Below, piece by piece: positions 3,001 to 35,797 of a stretch of DNA of 47,107 nucleotides (positions are counted from its first letter, which is position 1; each line of letters begins with the position of its first letter). The DNA is from a virus, in the IMG/VR virus record IMGVR_UViG_3300013285_000023, positions 1 to 47,107 of that record; one strand, written 5' to 3'. A program made the position numbers and the translations under genes. The notes beneath the pieces are model-generated. The model made no database searches. It saw only the letters and a program-made list of their open reading frames with translations, and had not been told where the DNA came from.

Positions 3001-6000
3001 AATCCAGTAAAGTATCGTGTGCCTGTTGTACTATTAGTTAAAATTTCGCTTGCTAAACTTTGTAACTGCTTAATTGCATTTGTTGTAGTAGTCAGTTCGG
3101 CTCCAATAGTCCCAACATACCCTCGTTGGTTCCAATACTGGACTCCGGCAAATGTTGATTGACTCGATGTATTGAACAACAAATCTTGTGCCAATGCATC
3201 AATAATTAATCTAGTATCACGCGAGCATTTTACATCATCGTACACAAACTGGCTAGGCCAAATACTGTCAATATAGGCAACAGTTTCTGCCTGAATAAAG
3301 TTTTTATTTTCTTCTAATAAACGTCTAGCACTATTAGTGCCTTCTGAAATTGTTTTATATTGAAAAGGTCGAATAATATCAGGACCAGTACCCGATCCGT
3401 TTCCTACAATTCCTGCTATGATGTTGAATTTTTCTGAAACTACATCTGATGCATCTGCTCCGTGTTGGAAAGACGGGTCAATTGATTGAGAAACTTTTGT
3501 CTGATAAGTTGTAGTTATTAGTTCGTTGGCAATAATTTTTACTGCAAGATCTCTTGCATTTAAAATTGCTTGGCTAGTTGTACTAACTTCTTCTATAGGT
3601 AGTACTACTGCTTTAGTAGTAGCGGTAGAACTTATGGTTTGGTCAACTGTACTAGATAACACATTGTAATAAGCATTTCCGCAAAAATACATAGTCAAAA
3701 AGTTGTCATTGGTTACATCGCCGCCGCCGTTCAAAATTGGTCTGTCTAGCGTAATACTTCTGTAGTTTACATCGGCAACTCGTGTACCTGTTGTTACATA
3801 AGTTCCTACACCGTCAGGTCCTTCGTTGCCGTATATATCTCTAATATAAATTGTATGTCCAACTGCAATGTCTGTAACATCAACATCTGTAATTGTGTAA
3901 CTGCCTGTTGTAACTGTGGCTGTATTAGAACTAGCAACTAAGAATCCAGAATAGCCTGCGGCATTGACATATGATATACGATCGCCGTTGTAATCTAAGT
4001 ATGTATCGGGAGGAATAACCTCCATAACTTGTCCGATGTGCGGTCTATTTAATTCGTCTGGTACAAATACTTCTACTCGCTGTTTGTTTGGCCAATAACC
4101 TAATGGATAAAATTCACTGTTAGGTATATTAGTTGGAAATGCTGGGTTCCAAACAATACCTGCAAAACTTAATTGACCAATACCTTTGGCAACCAAACAT
4201 TGATCTCCAAAGTTAGCGTTAGAGTTAGTGATAGAAGCAATACCTCCGTTTTCAACTAACACAGATGTAGAACAGAAGATTGTAAACACAGACACTAATT
4301 GTGCATAACCATTGTTGATAATGTGAACGCCAATACCGCCCTGATTTAATTGTGTAAACGCATCGAACACAAACGATTGAATAGGTGATCGCAATGAGGG
4401 AGCATTGCCATCAACAAGAGCGCCCCCTCCCGACCCATTAGGGTCTAATCTACGATCGGCAAAAATCCCATCATATTGGTCAACAGTCCATAACGCAGGT
4501 ATTTGATCGTCTAAAAATGGATAAACACTTGTACTACCAAAATATACGGTAGCATTATCGCTAGCCGCAATGGTAGGATTATTTAAAGTAACTGCATAGC
4601 AACCTGTTGATACTTCTGTGACTGCGGTAACTTGACTTGCAGTATTAATAGCATCAGCACTTAACCCACTAGGAACAATTAAGGCATAGATATCGTCTAC
4701 TACATCAGGAGCAGTTGTTGGACCACCATTAATAATAGTTGTAATAATTCCAAAATCAGTAGTAAGTCTTGTATTAACTACGTGGCCTTTATCTTTAGAA
4801 AGATCTATAGTTTGAGACACTGTAGTTTGATAAGTGCTAGTGATCACTGTGTTAGAAACAACTTTTGATGCAAGTGATGATAGGTAATTAATCGCGCCTA
4901 TAGTTTCAGTTTGTTGTCCAACAATTAAACTATTTGTTCCAGACCAATAACTTAGACCAGCAATAATGCTTCGTTTATTACCACCATATCGAGCATCGCC
5001 TGCTACAGCATCAACAATTAGTCCAGTATCTCTAAAACATAGAGCCTGATCGTAAACAAAATATGTGTTATTAAGATACGCAATTGTTTCTGCTTTGATG
5101 AATTCTCTATTGGCTTCTAATATTATAGCCGCATTCTTAATATACTGATTCGTGCTTGGAAATAAAGGTAACGGCGATAATTCTTCAGCAACACTTGGTC
5201 CGTTATTAATAATATTTGTAATTGTAGAAATAATAGCCTGTGCCTGTGTGCCTTGTGTTACGGTACCGCCGACCAAGTCAGTAATTTGGACTACTTTTGC
5301 CTGTTGGGGAGTAATAGTTTGACCAGTAATTATAGAAGGAAGGATACTCTTAATAAAATTATAGGCCGCAGTAGTCTGTGGTATTTCATTTAAAATTGCT
5401 GTTGCTGTTGTATATCCGTAGTAGGCAACTCCGCTTTGAATAGCCTGTCTATTTCCCCCGTATAATAAATCTATACTAACACTATCAATCATATATCCCA
5501 AATCTCTAAAACACTTGGCTTCGTCAAATTGGAATAATGGAGGATATTTACTATTAATATAGGCAATGACTTCTGACTGAATAAAACTTCTATTAGAAGT
5601 CAGTAGTTTTGCAGATTCGTAATTATTAACATTAGTGCTTGAAGTTAAATTAATAGGAGTCTTGTCAGATGCAACAGATGGCCCATTCCTAATAATATTT
5701 GTAATAGTACTTACAATATCATAAATTTCAGCAGATTCTGTAAATGTTGCTGTATAGGTAGCAAATACTTGCGTAACAGTTGACTGATATGGAGTAACTG
5801 GAACGTTTTGAATTATTTTCTGAGACAGATTTTCTAAATATTGATATGCATCAAGTGTAGCAGGCATTTCATTAGCCAATACTGTAGCAGTACTGTATCC
5901 GTAGTAATAAACACCTGATTGGACTGCTTGACGATTACCGCCGTGTAACAAGTCAAAACTGATACTGTCTAACATATATCCTACGTCGCGGTAGCATAAT

Positions 6001-23568: not shown

Positions 23569-23576
23569 TATTTATT
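23569..23576 (-). promoter_or_regulatory. Late promoter element overlapping the gp20 stop codon
   Basis: AATAAATA on the minus strand followed by GCAAC and ATG. It shares bases with the TAA stop of gp20, so coincidence is possible, but the 5-nt spacing equals that before the genes starting at 17989 and 43377. Confidence 0.35.
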
Positions 23577-25290
23577 ACTGAGTAGGGGGTGCGCCGCCGG
23601 GTGGTGTCGCTTGTGGTGTTGCACCACTCATATCGGGCTCAGGACCACCTTCCATACCCTCTGGAGCTTCTCCGGATTGACCTAAGGTATCTAAATCACT
23701 CTTCATGCCATCTGCAGTTACCCCGGCACCACGAAGCTCACTGCCCGCAGGTAGTGCATCGTTGCTCATGCCGTTTTCTTCTTTCCACATTTTTTCGTTT
23801 TCTGCTACTTCTTCCGCTGTTAAACCTAAGAAACGCTTGAGTGCAAAGCGTTTGCTGATGTGTGGCACAGCCGCAATAGAACCAAATGTATTGATACGCA
23901 CACCGTCCATCTCTGCTTGGCGATAGGCCGCAAAGTTCTGCGGTGGGTTAAATTTTAGATCAAACACATTAGGGTCAAAGTTAATGCCCTTGTTCTGCAT
24001 ATACAGTTTAAATTCGAGATCAAATGCCTCGTTGATCAAACTTTGTAAGCGTTCGCAGTACTTGTTAAATCTTAATTCTTGGATGTAGGCAGTGCCCACG
24101 CGGCCATCATTGAAGTTACTGCCTCCGTCATCTGGACCTGTAGGTAGATAACTTGAAGGGATGCGCAAAGCCCTAAAAAGTTTGTTTGTGAAATAGCGAA
24201 GATCATCGATTTCTCCAAGGTTAGTACCTCCTGGTAATATTTCAACCTTACTACCTCTTCCCTCACTAGTTTGTGGGAAAAAGTAATCATCATTCATACT
24301 TAACGGATTATAACTGCTGTCTGTAACAGTCTGACCACCACCTGTGACGCTGGGAATTCTACGTTGGTTTACTTCGTTTTTAACACGTTCTACGAAGCTC
24401 ATTGCCAAATGGCTTGGCATATTACCCACATCAATATAAAACACTCTACGCTCAGGAGCACGTTGTACACGATAGATAATGATAGCATCTTCAAGCAGTT
24501 CTTTCTGCTTGTATACTTTAAAGATAGGTTCTAGTAAACTGTTACCAAAAGGGAAATTATTGTCTAAACCTTCACTCATTGACAGGTGAATTACATGTTT
24601 AGCATCAATAGCATATTGATTTTGATTCACACCAAAACGGTTTCCGCCACTGCTTCCACCTTGACCGCCAACCATGCCCTTCTGTTGTGCTCCAGCAGTA
24701 ATGTAATTGCTTCCGCCGGGCGTATTTGTTTGATTTGAAGGACTAATCTGTGTAACTGTTAGTGCCATTAGGTTAATGTTCAAGTCACGAATAATATACT
24801 GTTCGGGCTCTTTGCCAGTACTTTCGTTAACAATAATCTTGTCAACTTTGTTAGGATCGATATACATCCATGCTTGGGTTTCAGGATCACGAACAAAGAA
24901 ACTGTCCCCGTACTTGAACGCATTGCGTACAATTTTAAAAATTCTACTGTTGAATTTGTTTAACTTTGACCATTGCTGTAGATACTTTTTAATGATCTTT
25001 GTTTCACTAGATGTTGCTTGCTCTTTAAAAAATATTTGGAAAGGAGTCCTATTATCATCATTTTCCTGTGAACAGAATTCTGCTAGAATATCCAGTGCGG
25101 CATTGACTTCTGAGTCACTATCCATGGTGTCATATTGTCCATAACGTTCTAAACGATTTGGGTGTCCAGAATAAACATCGGGCAGGTATGAACTGTAATT
25201 TGTCTTAGATCCGTGCGGACGATTCATACCACTAATCGTGCTCATCTGTCCAGACACATTAACGGGGGTAAAATACTTTTTCCAAGACAT
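23575..25290 (-). CDS. 20: gp20 portal vertex protein
   Basis: A 571-residue T4-type portal protein, the dodecameric ring at the unique vertex through which DNA is packaged and to which the tail joins. Family blocks visible: RYGQYDTMDSDSEVNAALDI, then NAFKYGDSFF near residue 130, then PFGNSLLEPIFKVYKQKELL, then YRVQRAPERRVFYIDVGNMP, then LPGGTNLGEIDDLRYFTNKL, then ALRIPSSYL. The length compares with 524 aa in T4. The C-terminal ~70 residues are Gly/Pro/Ala-rich and probably disordered. It starts 7 nt after the tape-measure stop, with no clear ribosome binding site, so coupling to the upstream gene is likely. Confidence 0.96.
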   Translation of the reverse strand: MSWKKYFTPVNVSGQMSTISGMNRPHGSKTNYSSYLPDVYSGHPNRLERYGQYDTMDSDSEVNAALDILAEFCSQENDDNRTPFQIFFKEQATSSETKIIKKYLQQWSKLNKFNSRIFKIVRNAFKYGDSFFVRDPETQAWMYIDPNKVDKIIVNESTGKEPEQYIIRDLNINLMALTVTQISPSNQTNTPGGSNYITAGAQQKGMVGGQGGSSGGNRFGVNQNQYAIDAKHVIHLSMSEGLDNNFPFGNSLLEPIFKVYKQKELLEDAIIIYRVQRAPERRVFYIDVGNMPSHLAMSFVERVKNEVNQRRIPSVTGGGQTVTDSSYNPLSMNDDYFFPQTSEGRGSKVEILPGGTNLGEIDDLRYFTNKLFRALRIPSSYLPTGPDDGGSNFNDGRVGTAYIQELRFNKYCERLQSLINEAFDLEFKLYMQNKGINFDPNVFDLKFNPPQNFAAYRQAEMDGVRINTFGSIAAVPHISKRFALKRFLGLTAEEVAENEKMWKEENGMSNDALPAGSELRGAGVTADGMKSDLDTLGQSGEAPEGMEGGPEPDMSGATPQATPPGGAPPTQ

Positions 25291-25297
25291 AATTTAA

Positions 25298-28200
25298 TTA
25301 AACGTATAAGTTTCCAGAAAGTGAACCAAGTTTCGAAGTTTGATTTTTGTTTTCTTCAAGCGTCATCTTCGTATATTTTACTAATTCTACTGTGTTCTTA
25401 TTTAACTGTTGCATCTCTTTAAGTAAATTTTCATTACCGCCAGATCCGCCCATTGCACCTAGTAACGGGTTTAATAAAACGCCTGCAGGACTCATGCCTG
25501 CTACATTCTTGATTCCGTCTGTTATGGTCTTGCCCATACTTTCCATTTCGCCTTTCGGGTCTTTCTTAATATCATCAATCTTTTTAGTAAGGTCGCTCAC
25601 ACTAGGCATTTTACTCATAAACTCTGGCATTAAAGTTTTAGCAAATGATCCTAGTGTATCTGTAAGCATAGGCGTTTTTGATTGTGTTGTAGACTGTAAC
25701 CCTGCTTCGGTCATTGGAGATAATTTTTTAGTCTGTTCAGCCATTATTTGTTTAATAGTATCGTTGTACGTATCTTTTTCAGGAGACTTTTTAATATCCA
25801 ATGTTTTTTCAGACATTCTACCTAAACTAGCATTGATGTCTTTGGTCATAGACTCCATATGAGTTTTCATATCAACTGGAGTTTTAGAGTCTTTAGTCAA
25901 TTCCGGTTGTTTGATACCAGACATTGAATCAAGGGGCAGTAACTTGCCAAGTGCCGCAATACTTTCCCTTGAAAGTGTAATAGGTTGTTGTTGCTGTCCC
26001 GAAGCGGCTATATCGCTAGCAACACCTTTAAAGTTGCCGCTGATACTCTTTGACATGTTTGCTAGATGCGGTTGCATATCTGCAAGTTTATCATTAGGAG
26101 TAATTTTTCCTGCGGCATCTGGTACCATTATTTCAGGTCCTTCTTCACCTACCCAGTACGGTTGCCCTGCTTTAACTGGACCGCCTTCAGCACGTTTGTC
26201 AACGCCTTTCTTCTTTTCTTCGGCTTCTCTTCTGGCTAATTCATCTGTTTCGCCTTGAATTCTATCATCTTTAGCAGTCTTACTTAAATTTTGAAGAACA
26301 CCGCCACCTAAGAAGTCAGGCAGTATAGCCCCAAGCATACTACCTGCTTTTTCAATTCCTCTTGCCGCACCGGATTCAATTTTATCCGCAATGCCCATTT
26401 TTTCCCAATTTTTATCATCTTGTTTTTCTTTTTCAGAGGCATTGTAAACAGGCGCAGTTTCTTTAACAAGTTTATCAGCATCGGCTTTTTTTGCTTTAAT
26501 TTCTTGTTCTTTTGCGGCTACTGCTTTTTGTTCTTCTGGTTTGTCTGCTAACTTAACAAGATTTGTCTGTTTTCTTTTTGCTTCTGCTTGTGCTTCTTCT
26601 GCCGCGGCAATTTCTTCGTTAATTTTCTTTATTTTTCCTACATCTTTTCCGGCATCCGCTTTTTGTTTATTCAAGGCTTCAATTTTTTCTGAAGATGCTT
26701 TTATTTCTGTATCGTAAGATTCTTTAGTCTTACCTGCTTTAATATCATTAAGTGCTTGAATTTTTCCAGCATTAGACATTTCTTCACGAGCAACTTCTGC
26801 TTTAGCATCATATGCTTTCTTTTCTGCATCTAGTTTATCTTTGTCTGCTTTAGCAGACGATTCACCGTACCAAGGAATAATTGCTTTCTTAACTTCAATT
26901 AACATCAACTTCATATAATAAGCAATATCATTGATAATTTTCTTTCTGCCTTCTTCTGAAAATAAATCTTTTGCAAAATTAGTGACAAAGGTTACTAGAG
27001 TAGTAAGAGCCGCTTTAATTGCAGGCATATTGTTTTTAACCATCTCCATAAACTGGTTTGCTAAATCGTTTACTATGGGAGTTAACATAGCCAGTGCTGG
27101 TTGTAGGGCTCCGTATATTGCGGCACCCATGTCTTTAAATGCTTTTTCACTTTCGGCGGCTGCGGCGGCGGCGGATTGACTACGAGCCTTTTCTTCGGCC
27201 GCAATATGTGCCATGTTCTTATTATAATCTTCTACGCTGTTAATTTTTTTATTGTTTAGATTATTTTCATTTTTAAGCATTGCATTAGACAACTCGCCCT
27301 GAGCCCCGCCTGCCTGCGTCAATGCAGATAGTGTGGTTCTTCCAATAGTTTCACTGTCTTTCTTTAGCCCAACAGCCATACCAGCAGTGGCTTTTCGAAC
27401 ATCGTCTAATCCTTTAGTACCGTCTTTAACTGCCCGTACCTGATCATCTTGAGCCGCGTTTGCTTTTTGAGCCATGGCCATAAACATGCCGCCCGCTTCA
27501 GTTAAAGGTATACCTGCTAGTTTATTTTTAAGTGCGTCACCTGCACCTTTACCGCCTGTTGCTAAACTTTCTTGTAGGGCTTTAGTTGCTTTCTCTCTAC
27601 CTTTCTCATCTAATGTCTGCAGATAGTTTTGAAAAGCGGCATCTGCGGCCTGCTCTTTCATCTGTGCTTCTAAGGCTTCTTTGCTTTCTCCAGTTAAACT
27701 TGATAACTGATCTAGTTCAACCATGTATCTAGCACTGGCTTCTGCAAGACCTTTAGTGTTTTTCATTTGGTCAGCAGTGCGGCCACCAGTCATGGTAATA
27801 TAATTTGCCATGCTGTTAGCAGTCTCTTCTGAAGTGTAGCCTAATGCTCTTAACTCTTCGCCTGCTTTTGAGTTGCGAAGTGCTTTGGCTACTTTTGTAA
27901 ATGCTTCTGCTCCTTCATTAGCACTACCACCCATGTTGGCAAAATCTGTACCGCGGGCTGACATTAGTTTGCCAAACTGATCTAGAGTTAGTCCTAAGTC
28001 AAGTGCGTTCTGTCTAATGGCATTTAACTGTCCTCCAAAGTTAACTCCGGCTTTGGTCATTGTTCTATAAGTTTCTAACTCTGCTTCCTGCATTTGGGCA
28101 ATCTTTTGAAACAGCCCTGCTACTAGACCCATACCCAACGGTAGGTCTTTCATTGCACCGTAAAAATCACTTAAGCCACCTTTGCCGTCCATTAGACCGC

Positions 28201-28561
28201 CAGCAAAGTCAGTTAAGTTACTGGCAGTTTTAGCAACTCCTCCAACTAGATCTCCAACAATACCGCCAAGGATCATCGCTCCCTTGGCAAATCTACTCAT
28301 ACTTTCTGTTGCCGCATTGGTAGCAACTGTTTGTTGGCCTGTTGCCTGTGTCTGTTGGGTTGTTGCTCCGGTCTGTTTCTGGGTTGCCGCTGTCTGTTGT
28401 TGAGTTGCTTGGGAAGTATTACCACCGCCACCATTTTTAAGTGCAGATAAAGCCGCAGTTTGCCTGTTCATTGCAGCCAACATGGCTCTTAATGTGGCTT
28501 CTGTTGCCGCATTATTCAGTTCTACTGGTTGCCCGCCTATCGTTCCCGTTACTTCAGCCAT
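25298..28561 (-). CDS. Tape-measure-like tail protein, 1,087 aa
   Basis: Tape measure proteins fill the tail tube and set its length. The evidence is a long Ala/Lys/Gln-rich helical protein with a Gln/Thr repeat (about 50-80), hydrophobic segments (MILGGIVGDLVGGVA; YGALQPALAMLTPIV) and coiled coils (about 560-720). It also has the signature found near the C-terminus of many tape measures (AEGGPVKAGQPYWVGEEGPE then MVPDAAGKI). It lies between gp20 and the gp26-family pair. T4 gp29 (about 590 aa) is the functional counterpart, and this protein is nearly twice as long. A divergent late promoter lies at 28616-28623, and GGTGGA serves as ribosome binding site. An alternative would be an unrelated large internal virion protein. 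Confidence 0.75.
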   Translation of the reverse strand: MAEVTGTIGGQPVELNNAATEATLRAMLAAMNRQTAALSALKNGGGGNTSQATQQQTAATQKQTGATTQQTQATGQQTVATNAATESMSRFAKGAMILGGIVGDLVGGVAKTASNLTDFAGGLMDGKGGLSDFYGAMKDLPLGMGLVAGLFQKIAQMQEAELETYRTMTKAGVNFGGQLNAIRQNALDLGLTLDQFGKLMSARGTDFANMGGSANEGAEAFTKVAKALRNSKAGEELRALGYTSEETANSMANYITMTGGRTADQMKNTKGLAEASARYMVELDQLSSLTGESKEALEAQMKEQAADAAFQNYLQTLDEKGREKATKALQESLATGGKGAGDALKNKLAGIPLTEAGGMFMAMAQKANAAQDDQVRAVKDGTKGLDDVRKATAGMAVGLKKDSETIGRTTLSALTQAGGAQGELSNAMLKNENNLNNKKINSVEDYNKNMAHIAAEEKARSQSAAAAAAESEKAFKDMGAAIYGALQPALAMLTPIVNDLANQFMEMVKNNMPAIKAALTTLVTFVTNFAKDLFSEEGRKKIINDIAYYMKLMLIEVKKAIIPWYGESSAKADKDKLDAEKKAYDAKAEVAREEMSNAGKIQALNDIKAGKTKESYDTEIKASSEKIEALNKQKADAGKDVGKIKKINEEIAAAEEAQAEAKRKQTNLVKLADKPEEQKAVAAKEQEIKAKKADADKLVKETAPVYNASEKEKQDDKNWEKMGIADKIESGAARGIEKAGSMLGAILPDFLGGGVLQNLSKTAKDDRIQGETDELARREAEEKKKGVDKRAEGGPVKAGQPYWVGEEGPEIMVPDAAGKITPNDKLADMQPHLANMSKSISGNFKGVASDIAASGQQQQPITLSRESIAALGKLLPLDSMSGIKQPELTKDSKTPVDMKTHMESMTKDINASLGRMSEKTLDIKKSPEKDTYNDTIKQIMAEQTKKLSPMTEAGLQSTTQSKTPMLTDTLGSFAKTLMPEFMSKMPSVSDLTKKIDDIKKDPKGEMESMGKTITDGIKNVAGMSPAGVLLNPLLGAMGGSGGNENLLKEMQQLNKNTVELVKYTKMTLEENKNQTSKLGSLSGNLYV

Positions 28562-28587: not shown

Positions 28588-28595
28588 CATAAATA
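28588..28595 (+). promoter_or_regulatory. Late promoter for the gp26-family pair
   Basis: CATAAATA on the plus strand, one base from TATAAATA. Predicted +1 near 28601, then CGGAGAAATTTT before the ATG at 28635. Confidence 0.6.
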
Positions 28596-28634: not shown

Positions 28635-29504
28635 ATGGTTCCTCAACCAAAAGTAAATCAAAACCCCTTATCAGGGTTCATGCGTCAGCCTAAAATCTAT
28701 ATCAAACTTCCTAGCGGAGGAGAGTTCTGGCCCGCGGGCAGTTTAAACAAAACAGAAAACGAAGAGTATCCTGTATACTCTATGACTGCCAAAGATGAAT
28801 TAATGCTTAAGGTTCCTGATGCTCTTATGAATGGACAAGCAGTTACCAGTGTTATCGAACACTGTGTTCCTAATATCAAGAATGCTTGGCATGTTCCTAA
28901 TATTGACTTAGATGTTATTCTAATTGCTATTCGCATTGCAACCTACGGTGAAATGATGACTGTACCAGTTGTAGTAGGAAACGACACAGATCTCGAATAC
29001 AGTTTAAATCTTAACTTGTTAATGGATACCTTAATGGGGCAGATCAGATGGGAAACTGCAATTCCAGTTAGTTCCGATTTAACTGTACACATTCGTCCGA
29101 TAAACTATAAACAGATGACCGAAAGTGCTCTCAAAACTTTTGAAACACAAAGAATATTTGATGCAGTTAATAGTCAAAATTTATCTGATGCTGAAAAATC
29201 CAAAGTTTTTAATGAGAGTTTTGACAAACTAAATCAAATTACTATTGGTATAGTAAACAATTCTGTGTTTGCCATTGAAAGTTCTGCAGGTACGACTGAC
29301 AATCCGGCACATATTCAAGAGTTTATGGAAAATACAGACAAAGAAATATTTGACATTGTTAAAAAACAAATTGAAACTCAACGTGAGAATAACAGCATCA
29401 AACCTTTGAAAATCCAAACTACAGATCAGATGCGTGAAGCAGGAGTAATTGAGGACGAAATTGAAATTCCGCTAGTGTTTGACGCTAGTTATTTTTTCGC
29501 ATAA
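28635..29504 (+). CDS. gp26-family baseplate/tail assembly protein; upstream part of a likely frameshift pair
   Basis: A 289-residue protein: an N-terminal IYIKLPSGGEFWPAG block, then TAKDELMLKVPDALMNG, a Cys in IEHCVPNI, then LIAIRIATYGEMMTVPV, and a C-terminal IEIPLVFDASYFFA. The layout matches the T4_baseplate (gp26-like) family, in which T4 gp26 (208 aa) takes part in baseplate hub assembly. It starts from ATG after CGGAG. Its last codons contain TTTTTTC (29492-29498) just before the TAA, and the next gene is in the -1 frame. That is the classic arrangement of tail-assembly chaperones, which normally neighbour the tape measure gene, as here. The family call is moderate; the chaperone role is inference. 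Confidence 0.65.
   Translation: MVPQPKVNQNPLSGFMRQPKIYIKLPSGGEFWPAGSLNKTENEEYPVYSMTAKDELMLKVPDALMNGQAVTSVIEHCVPNIKNAWHVPNIDLDVILIAIRIATYGEMMTVPVVVGNDTDLEYSLNLNLLMDTLMGQIRWETAIPVSSDLTVHIRPINYKQMTESALKTFETQRIFDAVNSQNLSDAEKSKVFNESFDKLNQITIGIVNNSVFAIESSAGTTDNPAHIQEFMENTDKEIFDIVKKQIETQRENNSIKPLKIQTTDQMREAGVIEDEIEIPLVFDASYFFA
29492..29498 (+). promoter_or_regulatory. Probable -1 ribosomal frameshift site (TTTTTTC)
   Basis: T TTT TTC in the zero frame fits the X-XXY-YYZ slippery rule. After a -1 slip the ribosome reads CGC ATA AGG CTT TTG TCA ATG with no stop and enters the frame of the 70-aa gene, giving a fusion of about 364 residues. The -1 frame is closed by TAG two codons upstream of the heptamer, and the zero frame closes at TAA one codon after it, so the site sits in the only possible window. 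A hairpin ACTATC / GATAGT (29519-29535) lies 20 nt downstream, further than usual for a stimulator. Confidence 0.6.
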
Positions 29505-29515
29505 GGCTTTTGTCA

Positions 29516-29728
29516 ATGACTATCGACGAGATAGTTGAACTTGCTAAACGCATGGAGCAAGAGACAAAGGCCATAAAGCAAGAACTCTATAAGTTTTGTT
29601 GGTACATGCGAGGAGGGCTTTCTTTTACAGAAGCCTACGAACTCGACATTGGAGATCGTGAGATACTGGGTAAGATTATTGAAGAAAATCTAGATACAAC
29701 TAAGAAAACTCAGTTGCCGTTTTTTTAA
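29516..29728 (+). CDS. Small tail-assembly protein, read alone or as the -1 frameshift extension of the gp26-like gene
   Basis: A 70-residue protein from the ATG at 29516 (AAGG 9 nt upstream); a TTG six bases earlier is possible. It has an N-terminal helix (TIDEIVELAKRMEQETKAIK), then WYMRGGLSFTEAY, then ILGKIIEENLDTTKKTQLPF. This compact pattern is known to me from small proteins beside tail genes in T4-like phages. It could be made separately or fused to the upstream protein by the slippery site at 29492-29498. Its last four bases overlap the stop of the convergent 284-aa gene. Confidence 0.65.
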   Translation: MTIDEIVELAKRMEQETKAIKQELYKFCWYMRGGLSFTEAYELDIGDREILGKIIEENLDTTKKTQLPFF

Positions 29729-30579
29729 ATCAATGTCTTAAAAAATTTACTATAGAATTGTGTGCTCTCGGCCATTGCTTTCGAAGCGGCTCTTGCGGCA
29801 CGTTTACGCATTGCATTCGGAGTTTGACTTACTTGTCCTGGTACTTTACCGCCACGAGCTGTTGGAGCCGCTGTAGGTTGAGCACCCGGTGTCATTGATC
29901 CAGGAACTTGCATTGGTTTCATAGGCATAGCGGTACCTTTTCCAAAACTTGGTGCATTTGGATTTCCTGGTTTAGCAGTATTTGTTTTACTAACAGGAGC
30001 ATTTGCCATTGTGTTAGCAGGAGGCGCTGCCGGAGCAGGAGTTCCTGTTAGTGTGTTGGCCATTTGACTCATTGCACCTGCGCCAGGATCGGGTGCTTTT
30101 TGTTTTTTGGCTAATGTAGCATCTAATGTTTTCTTAACACTTGCTAAATCTCTTGTTCTTAGGGTAGGAAGGATCTTGTTAATTTGACCTACGCCAATTT
30201 TACTTTGTTGTGCTTGAGCGGCACCGCCTGCGGCCGGATCATCAGATGCACCTGCTGACACTCCACCTTGTACCGGAGCACTGGCTTGTCCACTACCTTG
30301 TTGTGTTGGATCACCTGCTTGTTGAGCACCACCTTGTGCCTGGACAGGAGCACCCGCTTGTGCTGGTTGTTCATCAGGACCACCACCAATAGTATCAGCG
30401 GCTCTATTATAGCCTTTTCCAATTGCTCGAGCAATACCTGCTGGTACACCTGCTACAGCACCGATCCCTTGACCAACTGCGCCAAGTCCTTTACCAACAG
30501 CGGCACCTGCCCCACGAACTTTATCCCATACGGGTCCTTCTTCAAGATTTTCTGTTAAAAATAAATCGTCGATGCGCAT
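29725..30579 (-). CDS. Ala/Gly/Pro/Gln-rich low-complexity protein, 284 aa
   Basis: A 284-residue protein with an ordered N-terminal head (MRIDDLFLTENLEEGPVWDK) and a glycine-alanine amphipathic segment (GKGLGAVGQGIGAVAGVPAG, about 30-50). A long Gln/Ala/Gly/Pro-rich region follows (about 60-260), with a more ordered insert (KIGVGQINKILPTLRTRDLA, about 127-146), and a basic C-terminus (NAMRKRAARAASKAM). It has a perfect late promoter (TATAAATA at 30605-30612), so it is expressed with virion proteins. Function unknown; an internal head protein, an ejected protein or a disordered linker are all possible. It is convergent with the frameshift pair, overlapping by 4 nt. Confidence 0.6.
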   Translation of the reverse strand: MRIDDLFLTENLEEGPVWDKVRGAGAAVGKGLGAVGQGIGAVAGVPAGIARAIGKGYNRAADTIGGGPDEQPAQAGAPVQAQGGAQQAGDPTQQGSGQASAPVQGGVSAGASDDPAAGGAAQAQQSKIGVGQINKILPTLRTRDLASVKKTLDATLAKKQKAPDPGAGAMSQMANTLTGTPAPAAPPANTMANAPVSKTNTAKPGNPNAPSFGKGTAMPMKPMQVPGSMTPGAQPTAAPTARGGKVPGQVSQTPNAMRKRAARAASKAMAESTQFYSKFFKTLI

Positions 30580-31671: not shown

Positions 31672-31996
31672 TTTTCTTTTCCTCTTTAAAAACTTGTACG
31701 TACTTTAGCCTCTCGAGTTCTTCTGCATGAGCTCGCCAACGTCTTTTATCTTCTGCTCTAAGTAGTTGTCTTATTACAGTTAAGTCGTTATACATTGCCA
31801 AACTTGATCTTTTAATTGCAGTCAAACTTTTTTGTAGTTCTCGAGATGTCTCTTTGCTTGGAAACTCCATATATGCCATTTGAGCATTGTGAATACGAAA
31901 AATCAAAGCCAGGTACTCTCGATAGTTACTACTATGATTGTTTAGTCGATCTTCTATCTCCGGGGTGCTAGTTTTGAAACCTTTATGTCTCGACAT
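31658..31996 (-). CDS. Hypothetical helical protein after gp46, 112 aa
   Basis: A 112-residue, charged, helix-rich protein (PEIEDRLNNHSSNYREYLAL, then FPSKETSRELQKSLTAI, then RAEDKRRWRAHAEELERL). It has no recognisable domain. It overlaps the gp46 stop by 14 nt and the next gene by 14 nt, so it is translated as part of the gp46/gp47 operon. A role in recombination or repair is suggested only by position. Confidence 0.65.
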   Translation of the reverse strand: MSRHKGFKTSTPEIEDRLNNHSSNYREYLALIFRIHNAQMAYMEFPSKETSRELQKSLTAIKRSSLAMYNDLTVIRQLLRAEDKRRWRAHAEELERLKYVQVFKEEKKNDNN

Positions 31997-33770
31997 AGTC
32001 TGTATCTGTTGCGTAACTGGTAAAACCGTTTTCCTTAACTACTTTAAGGACATTATTTACACGGCCTACCAATTCATCCTTATGTGATATGAGATAAATG
32101 TTCTTGTTTCGTTCACGTGCCATCTTCTTAAGTACAGCAATACCCGCTTCTACTCCGGCAGAGTCCATACCTGCATCAATAAGTTCGTCAATAAACAGTA
32201 AGTTGATGTGTTGATATAGGTTTTCCCATACATCACGGAAGGCCCACGACAAACTTAAGATCAATCGATTGCGTTCTCCGCGTGATAAATTATCAAAATC
32301 TAAATCTTGTCCTAGTTGAGTAATCTCAACTGTTAGATCATTTAAGAATTTAACCTGATGGGGCAAGCCCATTTTGTTGATATAGTAGTCTAATCGCTTG
32401 TTTAGATAGTTTAAATTCTGATCAATAATCTTTTTACGGATAAAACTATCCTTATTGGTCAACAGTTTAAGCAAGAACTCCTGATGATCACGAACAGATG
32501 TTAGTTCGTTTACAGTATCCCAAGTAATTTCTTGAATGGCGGTATTCTTTAGATCCTCAATTTGCTCATCGTACGGATTGGCTTCGACAATTTTATCGTC
32601 TAAATTACTCTTTAGATTGTTTAAATTGCTTTGATGCGTAGTTGCTTCGGCTTCTGTATCGTAAAAAGTAATAGGTTTCTTAGGTTGAATACCTATTGCA
32701 TCTATTTCAGTCAGTATCTTTTCCAAATCTTCACCTACTTTAGTAAAGTAGTTGGCCGCATCTAGTGCATTTTTTTCAGCAGTAGTGGTCATTTCCTCAT
32801 GCTTATGGTCATGTAGTGCTTGTTCACAAGCATGACATGTTTTGTTTGCTAGACTTTCTAATTCTTTTGTGTATTTTGTTAAACTTTTTTCAGCCTGTAT
32901 TACAGCACTTTCTAGCGTGGCCTTTTGTTTAGTTAGATTACGTACCTTAGTATCATTTTCATTCCATTGTTTAATATCGGCATGTGCTTGCAATTCAACG
33001 TCAATGTTTACGCTTTCTAGTTGTGATATTGCTTTATTAAACTTACCAATGTCGTCTTGTTTTTTATTTGTCCATGCTTGACTTTTAAGCACTAAACTGT
33101 CAATACTTTTTTGTACATTTTCATTAGCAGTTCTAGTTGCTTCGATCTTTGCAGTTTCTTGTTGAATATTGTCTTTAATAGTCTTGATCTGTGCTTTTAG
33201 TAGTTCAGACTTTTCACTTAAAAGTGTAATACCCAATAGTTGTTCAATTACTTCTCGTTGATCTGCCGCTTTCATACTTAAGAAGGGCTCTGTATATGTA
33301 TTCAATGCTACAAGATGTTTAAACATTGTATGGCTCATGGCCAATAACTGTTCTATTGACTTTTGTGTTTCGCGACTGTCACCTTGGGCATCGTCGTCTG
33401 CTTCTTCGGCAGTTTGTTCCTGGTCATTAACAAAAAATCTAAGTACATTAGGTTTACGACCACGTTCGATCTTGTATTTTACACCGTTTTGTTCAAACTC
33501 AACAGTGACTAACATACCTTTAGTATTGGTTTTGTTAATTAAGTTTTCTTTACGGATGTTTGTGAGTGCTTGACCGTATAGAGCATAACTCAGTGCATTG
33601 ATAATTGTAGTTTTACCTGTACCGTTACGTGACCCGCTGTCGTCTCCACCTAGGTCAAGATTCTCTCCTAGCACCAAGGTAAGTGCTTCTTTGTCAAAAT
33701 CTACAGCCTGTGTTTGATTGCCAACGCTAAGAAAGTTCTTAACGGTTATATTCTTTAGTTTAAATGTCAT
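31983..33770 (-). CDS. 46: gp46 recombination endonuclease subunit (Rad50/SbcC-like ATPase)
   Basis: A 595-residue SMC-type ATPase that with gp47 processes double-strand ends for recombination-dependent replication. Walker A NGTGKT lies at residues 49-54. Two coiled-coil arms flank a zinc-hook motif CHAC near residue 312. The ABC signature LSRGERNRL is near residue 490 and Walker B LLFIDELIDAGMD near 530. T4 gp46 is 560 aa. The ATG overlaps the gp47 stop (ATGA), so the two subunits are translationally coupled. An acidic Gly/Asp insert (LDLGGDDSGSR) precedes the P-loop. Confidence 0.96.
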   Translation of the reverse strand: MTFKLKNITVKNFLSVGNQTQAVDFDKEALTLVLGENLDLGGDDSGSRNGTGKTTIINALSYALYGQALTNIRKENLINKTNTKGMLVTVEFEQNGVKYKIERGRKPNVLRFFVNDQEQTAEEADDDAQGDSRETQKSIEQLLAMSHTMFKHLVALNTYTEPFLSMKAADQREVIEQLLGITLLSEKSELLKAQIKTIKDNIQQETAKIEATRTANENVQKSIDSLVLKSQAWTNKKQDDIGKFNKAISQLESVNIDVELQAHADIKQWNENDTKVRNLTKQKATLESAVIQAEKSLTKYTKELESLANKTCHACEQALHDHKHEEMTTTAEKNALDAANYFTKVGEDLEKILTEIDAIGIQPKKPITFYDTEAEATTHQSNLNNLKSNLDDKIVEANPYDEQIEDLKNTAIQEITWDTVNELTSVRDHQEFLLKLLTNKDSFIRKKIIDQNLNYLNKRLDYYINKMGLPHQVKFLNDLTVEITQLGQDLDFDNLSRGERNRLILSLSWAFRDVWENLYQHINLLFIDELIDAGMDSAGVEAGIAVLKKMARERNKNIYLISHKDELVGRVNNVLKVVKENGFTSYATDTDYVET

Positions 33771-34780
33771 AGGTTATTATAAATCTCTAGCAATAACTTC
33801 TTATCAAATGTTTCTGAATCAATATTAATCAGTTGTTCTGTTACAATTTGGTCAACTGACTCAAATTTTGTATTAGGGCTATCGTCTATTACGCCTTCTA
33901 GATTATCTCGTTCTTGAATTAATTGTAGTTCACGGATATCTTTAGAGGCCATGAATGTTTCTTTTAAGAAATTAGCCTCTTCAAATGTAACATTACAATC
34001 TAAATGAACTTTGAGGTACATTTTGTCTTGTAGAATTGTATCTTGCTCATCAATTAAGCGGCTGAGTTTAAGTGTACGGAACTTAGGAGCATCGGGCCAT
34101 GCTTGATATTGCGGTTCTCCACCCCATTCCATGAACATCATTCCTCGTTCATCGTCCCATGTGTCTGAAAAGTTATGAGGAAATGCATTTCCAATATAAA
34201 CAACTTTATTACGGGCCTGTCGTTTATGAAAGTGTCCGCTGAACACATAGTCTTGATGTTCAAAATGTTCTGCTTGCAATTCACCATGATCGGGCATCTG
34301 TACCATTGCGTTCATATAGAACAAGGGTAATTCAAAATGCCCAAACATGTATCGGCTTTTCGTTTGACTAATAGTCTTCCATTCATCTCCGACCAACCAC
34401 GGTACAAGGGTGACATCGCCTAGAGTGGTGACAGAGTCTACGACAGTCACGCCAGGAATATGGCGTCCGAACGCACTACTATGGATGTCTCGCTTGTCCT
34501 TGTAGAATAAATCGTGGTTACCAGGAAACCAAAAGAATTGTTCAAATCCTGCGCCAAGTTTTTCCAAACACCGCATTGAAGTATCTAGTGTAATTAGATT
34601 AATTGAGTTGCGGTTATGGTGCCAGTCGCCTAGAAAAATACAAGTTTCACAGCCTTTGGCTTGTGCTTCGGCAATAAACCAGTCTACAAAGTCCTCGCAG
34701 TCCTGGTTATGAGTTCCCGAATTTGATTTCAGTCCAAAATGTATGTCCGTAAAACATGCTACCTTCTTGAATAATGTCAT
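33767..34780 (-). CDS. 47: gp47 recombination endonuclease subunit (Mre11/SbcD-like)
   Basis: A 337-residue calcineurin-type phosphoesterase, the nuclease partner of gp46. The metal-binding motifs are all present: DIHFG (Asp12, His14), GDWHHNR (Asp52, His54), GNHD (residues 87-90), GHFELP and SGHFHKRQ. T4 gp47 is 339 aa, the same length. Ribosome binding site AAGGAA. It sits between gp55 and gp46 in a single minus-strand operon behind the sigma70-type promoter at 35769-35797, so early or middle expression is expected. Confidence 0.96.
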   Translation of the reverse strand: MTLFKKVACFTDIHFGLKSNSGTHNQDCEDFVDWFIAEAQAKGCETCIFLGDWHHNRNSINLITLDTSMRCLEKLGAGFEQFFWFPGNHDLFYKDKRDIHSSAFGRHIPGVTVVDSVTTLGDVTLVPWLVGDEWKTISQTKSRYMFGHFELPLFYMNAMVQMPDHGELQAEHFEHQDYVFSGHFHKRQARNKVVYIGNAFPHNFSDTWDDERGMMFMEWGGEPQYQAWPDAPKFRTLKLSRLIDEQDTILQDKMYLKVHLDCNVTFEEANFLKETFMASKDIRELQLIQERDNLEGVIDDSPNTKFESVDQIVTEQLINIDSETFDKKLLLEIYNNL

Positions 34781-34828: not shown

Positions 34829-35743
34829 TCAAGCCTCTTCTTCTTCAATATCTGTTTCTTCACTCTTAGGCATACGGAACTTCTTATACAGTTCGGCCTG
34901 GCGAGCAGTTTCATCTGCAAACTGTGCCTTGTTCTGTCTTGTGTTACTTGGAGTAAGTCCGTGTTCTTGTAGCATATCGTCCCGAATATTTTGATTTTTC
35001 TTTTCAATATTAAGAATACGAGTAAATGAGTTGGTCACAGCGGCAGTATAGTAGGCAAACGGATTTTCTGATTTGCTTTCGTCAAACTGTAGACCAATTT
35101 GGCTTAATTGTAGGATAGCCTGTCCCTTCATTTCTTCAACGTAGGTGTAACCACGCCAATTGCTACGTTGTGCATATCGTTCGCTTAGTTTGATATACAT
35201 CTTTCCTAAATTTTCTGTAATACGACCGTGATCTTTACTAAACACCCCGGTATCTAACGGACCTTTCCAATGACTCTTGCCAACACAGACTAATTCATCT
35301 GGGGTTGTTTCGTCAAACTTCCAATGCTGGAAGGGAGGAAAGTTTACCTTATCGTGACTGTCCGCTGTAGTTTTTGTTGTCTTCTTGCGACCTGGCGCTA
35401 AAGGAATATGCTCAAACGTCATAATACGTATGACTAAATCAGTTTTTGCAACAGTTTTATAATCTGGAGTACACTCTGTTAATTTTATTTTTTTATCGCC
35501 TGCTAATCTTGCTCGGGCAAATGCTTCTAGTCCTAGTCTTTTTGCTTTATTACGTTTGGCTTCTGCTATAGTTCTTATATTAATTTTATCTAAATTGCTA
35601 AGAATAATATCATGTTGGCTGTATTCTGGTTTGGTAAAACTTGAAAATGTATTTTTTGATCTATGGATTTCTGCTAGTAAATCTCTGTTATTTAAATACT
35701 TGACCTTGCGTCCAGTAGGTGATGTTGTTAGTGTTGTAGCCAT
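34829..35743 (-). CDS. 55: gp55 late-transcription sigma factor
   Basis: A 304-residue protein whose second half matches T4 gp55, the small sigma factor that directs host RNA polymerase to TATAAATA promoters: WRGYTYVEEMKGQAILQL, then FDESKSENPFAYYTAAVTNS, then IKKE-like LNIEKKNQNIRDD. T4 gp55 is 185 aa; the extra ~150 residues are mostly an N-terminal extension with a conserved-looking FPPFQHWKF then ELVCVGKSHWKG part. I chose the ATG at 35743 because AAGGAGT lies 10 nt upstream; longer starts would lie inside or upstream of the -10 box of the promoter. The window's many TATAAATA-type elements are its expected targets. Confidence 0.88.
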   Translation of the reverse strand: MATTLTTSPTGRKVKYLNNRDLLAEIHRSKNTFSSFTKPEYSQHDIILSNLDKINIRTIAEAKRNKAKRLGLEAFARARLAGDKKIKLTECTPDYKTVAKTDLVIRIMTFEHIPLAPGRKKTTKTTADSHDKVNFPPFQHWKFDETTPDELVCVGKSHWKGPLDTGVFSKDHGRITENLGKMYIKLSERYAQRSNWRGYTYVEEMKGQAILQLSQIGLQFDESKSENPFAYYTAAVTNSFTRILNIEKKNQNIRDDMLQEHGLTPSNTRQNKAQFADETARQAELYKKFRMPKSEETDIEEEEA

Positions 35744-35768
35744 TGGTATTTGGACTCCTTTATGAGAT

Positions 35769-35797
35769 ATTGTAGCATTTCTGCCACACGGTGTCAA
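35769..35797 (-). promoter_or_regulatory. Sigma70-type (early) promoter for gp55-gp47-gp46
   Basis: Minus strand TTGACA, 17-nt spacer, TACAAT: a perfect -35 and a one-mismatch -10 at ideal spacing. Predicted +1 is near 35762, a few bases before the AAGGAGT ribosome binding site of gp55. Confidence 0.85.

Follow-up and report, generated by a model that had tools for sequence, protein, structure and literature searches.

A gp26-family gene with a conserved -1 slippery site and a covarying downstream stem: a predicted frameshifted tail-assembly-chaperone locus in a T4-like phage

In this work we describe a gp26-family gene of the viral record IMGVR_UViG_3300013285_000023 (positions 1–47,107, hereafter the window, that is, the whole stretch of 47,107 bases that was analyzed), which very probably yields a short and a long protein form by -1 slippage of the ribosome near its end, as judged from sequence comparisons. 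We consider it highly likely that the locus is a TAC-N/TAC-NC tail-assembly-chaperone (TAC) locus made by such slippage and located beside a divergent tape-measure-like gene. The features that support this reading are listed in Table 1.

The 3' end of the gene reads ...GAC GCT AGT TAT TTT TTC GCA TAA, with the last base at position 29504. The heptamer has the canonical X_XXY_YYZ register, which allows the two tRNAs to pair again once the ribosome has slipped by -1. The zero frame ends with TAA at 29502–29504, one codon past the heptamer; in the -1 frame a TAG at 29486–29488 is followed by an open stretch from 29489 to 29725, so that the heptamer lies within the overlap of the two frames (29489–29504), as is typical of canonical -1 sites. 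The initial annotation had claimed a TTTTTTC at the gene end, a following ORF in the -1 frame without an intervening stop, a single slip window bounded by these two stop codons and a fusion of about 364 aa, and each of these claims was borne out to the base: the computed spliced product is 364 aa long and its junction reads ...SYFFRIRLLSMT..., as predicted there. The word TTTTTTC is not rare in itself, as 15 copies are present in the 47,107-base window against 18.75 expected. The heptamer being an ordinary word, the case against chance is built on its position and conservation.

Table 1. Coordinates of the features of the predicted chaperone locus and its neighbors in the window
Feature	Position	Strand	Basis and remarks
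gp26-family gene, short form (TAC-N), 289 aa	28635..29504	+	ORF; start ATG 28635; phrog_150 and BFVD fold matches
Slippery heptamer T_TTT_TTC	29492..29498	+	Sequence; identical in 69/69 distinct loci found via the -1 domain
Spacer GCATAA, 6 nt, contains the zero-frame stop	29499..29504	+	Sequence; alignment
-1 frame ORF	29489..29728	+	Post-slip codons 29498–29725, stop TAA 29726–29728; C-terminal extension of the predicted 364-aa TAC-NC
Stem, 5' arm, GGCTTTTGTC	29505..29514	+	Pairing/covariation; fold z -5.1
Stem, 3' arm, GACAAAGGCC	29563..29572	+	Pairing/covariation
Divergent 1087-aa tape-measure-like protein	25298..28561	-	phrog_1538 tail length tape measure, E 3.5e-7, local, residues 789–850
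Putative portal-like gene adjoining the tape-measure-like gene	23575..25290	-	ORF; named by position and by eye; annotated portal at the same place in RaK2, GAP32 and PA5oct

A check proposed in the initial annotation, whether the heptamer and the -1 register are conserved in homologues of the gene pair, was performed with two sets of sequences and passed in both. The gp26-side set comprised 93 loci or records, namely 80 loci from viral contigs searched with the gp26 protein, the window and records of isolated phages; an in-frame T_TTT_TTC near the gene end was detected in 91 of them, the two misses being L072, where the heptamer is nonetheless visible by eye, and RM378. The second search, seeded solely with the -1 frame domain, gave 80 viral loci (69 distinct), all of which carry the heptamer in the same register (80/80 loci, 69/69 distinct). 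Both searches were made in one collection and have some contigs in common, so they are not wholly independent. The zero-frame stop is located three codons from the slip start in 59 of the 69 distinct loci and six codons from it in 10. Since the other Phe codons of these genes are TTT in 78% and TTC in 22% of cases, the invariant TTT-TTC order is not an effect of codon usage. A chance heptamer was therefore rejected: heptamer and register are kept in close and distant relatives, and on the evidence of these alignments the conservation of the heptamer is far beyond chance.

Among distant relatives, a tblastn search against phage records revealed a gp26-like protein with about 26–33% identity in jumbo myophages. 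The heptamer was found at the end of the same gene in 11 isolated records at 25–31% identity (Agrobacterium phage Atu_ph07, Sinorhizobium phage Phosso, 121Q, RaK2, PA5oct, GAP32, XaC1, Vibrio phage 2.275.O, Munch, BF and SCTP-2), and in the same records the -1 frame runs on from FF into a related domain. In isolated jumbo phages the zero-frame stop has drifted up to 13 codons past the first slip codon, with the heptamer kept. In cyanophage Sf-FS3, Aeromonas phage phiAS5 and Rhizobium phage IC12, T_TTT_TTC is followed in the -1 frame by a short domain, which the Sf-FS3 record annotates as gp51-like; RL38J1 carries TTTTTTG at the corresponding site. Seven consecutive T stand at the end of the gp26-like gene of Rhodothermus phage RM378 (L091, 3600–3910), where the domain continues in the +1 (or -2) frame, not in the -1 frame. 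Pseudomonas phage Cygsa01 (L095, 2290–2330) contains a gp26/gp51 relative without a slippery site, in which the ATG of the gp51-like gene overlaps the stop of the first gene; the long form may be absent there or made otherwise. A search of the junction DNA against phages gave no match. In the published records of 121Q, GAP32, RaK2 and Atu_ph07 the C-terminal half appears as a hypothetical protein, separate or truncated, or was missed, and the conserved heptamer provides a rule for correcting such annotations in jumbo phages.

The -1 ORF has a length of 72–79 codons in every distinct sequence examined. Its substitutions are distributed over codon positions 1/2/3 as 0.32/0.19/0.49, nearly equal to the 0.31/0.19/0.50 of the zero-frame gene before the slip. 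In an alignment of 45 sequences of the -1 domain 12 of 78 columns are invariant; six of these fall within the first seven residues, where slip site and stem also constrain the nucleotides and account for part of the invariance. Conservation sets in at the slip itself (FFR..LL), ahead of the start codons available to a separate gene. Moreover, the -1 ORF of PA5oct has no ATG, GTG or TTG in all its 75 codons, and in L054, L058 and L080 the first possible start is codon 38. By these signatures the -1 ORF is judged to be coding and, in general, not an independent gene. Its domain is predicted to form a helical hairpin (pLDDT 87); the model has no clear relative in PDB or BFVD, and no named match to the domain was found in PHROGs or BFVD.

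Besides the heptamer, sequences of the window's clade share a stem of 9–12 bp that begins 6 nt after it. In the 12-pair version 95.0% of cells over 54 aligned sequences are paired, compared with 87.2% in shuffles and with 29–51% when the partner was slid by 1–3 columns as a control. Compensatory changes were revealed at 7 of the 12 pairs, and 38 cells are changed on both sides versus 10.6 in shuffles, a value reached in 0 of 500. RNAalifold recovers the same stem unprompted, with 10 pairs; examples of arm pairs in relatives are GGCTTTTGT/ACAAAAGCC, GGCTTTTGA/TCAAAAGCC and GGCTTTTAC/GTAAAAGCC, and 10 contiguous pairs are present in Atu_ph07 and Phosso. The 92 nt after the heptamer of the window fold with -28.0 kcal/mol (z -5.1), the clade mean being z -4.4 (50 sequences). 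The 3' arm encodes a conserved T/S-K-A, and the conservation is thus partly due to coding, but coding does not account for the paired changes. A conserved inner hairpin in the stem loop, which the folds of the window and of L006 had suggested, was rejected: its register varies from sequence to sequence, and it has no support from RNAalifold.

The stem lies at the normal distance of a stimulator, within the range of 5–9 nt downstream where 3' elements are expected, and it probably promotes the slip. The initial annotation supposed a low frequency of the fusion; with 10 bp at 6 nt the slip could be fairly efficient. The stem is not universal: at such spacing it was not found in 20 of the 69 distinct loci of the -1-domain search, and the same stem was not found in phages of the RaK2/121Q/GAP32/Munch type. 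Other elements may do the job of the stimulator where the stem is missing. L124, L178 and similar loci without the long stem have short palindromes just past the heptamer (AAGGATCCT; AAGGCTCCTTAGCCTT), which are perhaps alternative stimulators. Rfam has no family at the locus, its sole match being a snoRNA below the cut-off, and a literature search found no description of the covarying stem, which does not prove that none exists. We regard as evenly balanced the proposal that the covarying stem sets the ratio of short to long chaperone in Atu_ph07, in Phosso and in a large clade of T4-type phages that are jumbo-like and uncultivated, and would represent an undescribed family of frameshift stimulators in tail assembly genes, replaced elsewhere by other solutions including the two genes of T4. 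The stem makes the control of this ratio directly testable.

An alternative is that the two proteins are made separately, by termination at the gp26 stop and reinitiation at ATG 29516 or TTG 29510, the heptamer being incidental. In the window this ATG is preceded 9 nt upstream by AAGG (29503–29506), so that separate initiation is possible; however, apart from the window only its two closest relatives have this ATG. Many members of the clade have TTG as codon 6 of the -1 frame, but neither this TTG nor a nearby start is present in L054, L058, L079 and L080, and the PA5oct ORF has no start codon at all. Some annotators have called a separate gene here (121Q gene 595, Phosso 319), and Cygsa01, with its overlapping ATG and no heptamer, indicates that coupling is used in at least one relative. 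Nevertheless, separate synthesis leaves the invariant heptamer and stem unexplained, and conservation starts at the slip codons, upstream of the candidate starts. An independent second gene as the main mode was rejected on these grounds, the lack of start codons in relatives and the conservation from the slip onward, and we consider reinitiation improbable.

Slippage might also occur during transcription of the T run rather than on the ribosome, giving mRNAs that encode the fusion. The site is indeed a run of six T, and in RM378 seven T are followed by continuation in the +1/-2 frame; however, transcriptional slippage usually requires longer runs, of about nine. The feature conserved here is six T followed by C, placed exactly in the X_XXY_YYZ register, and a covarying stem that starts 6 nt further on suits a ribosomal stimulator, which makes the transcriptional variant very unlikely. 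Homopolymer runs are also common sites of error, and one might suspect a pseudogene or a single true gene that a sequencing indel in the T run has split. This is already refuted, with hardly any probability left to it, since the two frames stand in the same relation in all distinct loci (69/69), which come from many metagenomes, and in isolated phage genomes.

With -1 ribosomal slippage as the preferred reading, ordinary translation of 28635–29504 would produce TAC-N, a gp26-family protein of 289 aa. The stem (29505–29514/29563–29572) would slow a fraction of ribosomes, which would shift by -1 on T_TTT_TTC (29492–29498) with tRNA-Phe in the P and A sites and read to 29725, giving TAC-NC of 364 aa with an added helical C-terminal domain. 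The tape-measure protein would be coated by many short and fewer long copies, and tube subunits would be recruited, as with gpG/gpGT in lambda; by analogy, coating would be the role of the short form and recruitment of the tube that of the long one.

By its match to phrog_150 (E 9.5e-11) the zero-frame protein is a member of the T4 gp26 'baseplate hub' family. A BFVD search with its structural model (pLDDT 82) retrieved predicted baseplate hub assembly proteins of the T4-like kind, with E down to 1e-20. Pfam gave nothing useful for the four proteins searched, and no solved structure matched the gp26-family protein by sequence or by Foldseek at E<0.001. The HK97 tail assembly chaperone 2ob9 was considered as a relative of the model (VIA-align Z 6.0, rmsd 4.2, 93 residues) and rejected; the score is within noise, in a list full of unrelated helical proteins. 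The T4 proteins gp26 and gp51 figure in PMC3004832 as chaperones of hub assembly. According to hhalign the two are paralogues (Prob 99.2, E 2e-19), and the extra C-terminal part of gp51 aligns in register with the -1 domain, the direct hhalign comparison of the fusion with gp51 being weak (E 0.015). The whole 47-kb record contains one gp26-family match, but as it is probably a fragment, a second such gene may lie outside it.

A divergent tape-measure gene next door and a role in tail assembly had also been suggested in the initial annotation. The neighbor at 25298–28561 on the minus strand has a local match to phrog_1538 (E 3.5e-7), and genes for the portal, a long structural protein and gp26 follow one another in this order in 121Q, RaK2, PA5oct, GAP32, XaC1 and BF. 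The chaperone reading is supported at the comparative level by the conserved heptamer and register, the covarying stem and phrog_150 membership, and it is by analogy that binding of the tape measure by the TAC pair may be expected. On the other side of the locus, positions 29725–30579 (minus strand) encode a 284-aa protein of low complexity, rich in A/G/Q/P, for which no family match was found; its stop codon overlaps that of the -1 ORF on the opposite strand.

Frameshifted TAC genes are already known in T4-like phages, and the covariation-supported stem is an added detail. Two later papers name Vladimirov et al. 2022 as the source for poly-T frameshift signals in the TAC genes of T4-like phages (PMC12846349, PMC10885494), and the finding is therefore not new in kind. 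The latter paper, citing Vladimirov, Gautam and Davidson 2022 (Virology 566:9-15), adds that some T4-like phages have a short gene and a longer fusion gene, with no frameshifting (PMC10885494). As far as its title and these two citing papers describe it, the TAC-N/TAC-NC system of Vladimirov et al. 2022 shares with the window a gp26-family TAC-N, a poly-T slippery site near the 3' end and a downstream -1 extension; the window's clade differs in being uncultivated and jumbo-like and in its long covarying 3' stem. Phage Adele (Vandenendeviridae/Andersonviridae) is likewise a myophage whose TAC involves a conserved -1 slip at a T-rich sequence, but the motif is GTTTTT and the lineage is another one (PMC12846349). 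A 2010 comparison notes that cyanophage gp51 is without the first ~200 residues of T4 gp51 (PMC3037559), which would fit a C-terminal domain normally reached by frameshift.

T4 itself uses the same gp26 family, and its gp51 resembles a gp26-like domain with a C-terminal extension; unlike in the window, its short and long forms are two paralogous genes. We found neither a slippery heptamer nor such a -1 ORF at the end of T4 gene 26. The 2022 abstract by Vladimirov, Gautam and Davidson reportedly states that frameshifting is conserved in several T4-like groups, T4 itself using genes 26 and 51. The T4 record (L093) contains at 3803–4090 (minus strand) a shorter gene 26' inside gene 26 with the same end, which is possibly a further isoform of the short chaperone.

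A 2016 review describes the G-T frameshift as widely conserved in long-tailed phages 'except T4' and reports that the tape measure of lambda is bound by gpG as well as by gpGT, the frameshift product, whose T domain recruits tube subunits (PMC5009743). At the present locus the predicted one-gene, one-slip, two-product arrangement is seen across T4's wider relatives. The locus resembles lambda gpG/gpGT (PMC5009743) in its one gene with a short form and a predicted long form made by -1 slippage near the stop, which would act on the tape measure. Unlike lambda, whose genes point in the same direction as that for the tape measure, the window locus has a divergent tape-measure-like gene.

The sequence CATAAATA at 28588–28595 (plus strand), some 40 bases ahead of the gp26 start, differs at one position from the T4 late promoter TATAAATA; matches of this quality occur in the window as often as expected by chance. 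Further downstream, positions 34829–35797 (minus strand) encode a predicted protein that by eye is like the T4 gp55-type late sigma factor, and gp46/gp47-like recombination genes (31983–34780) adjoin this gp55-like gene.
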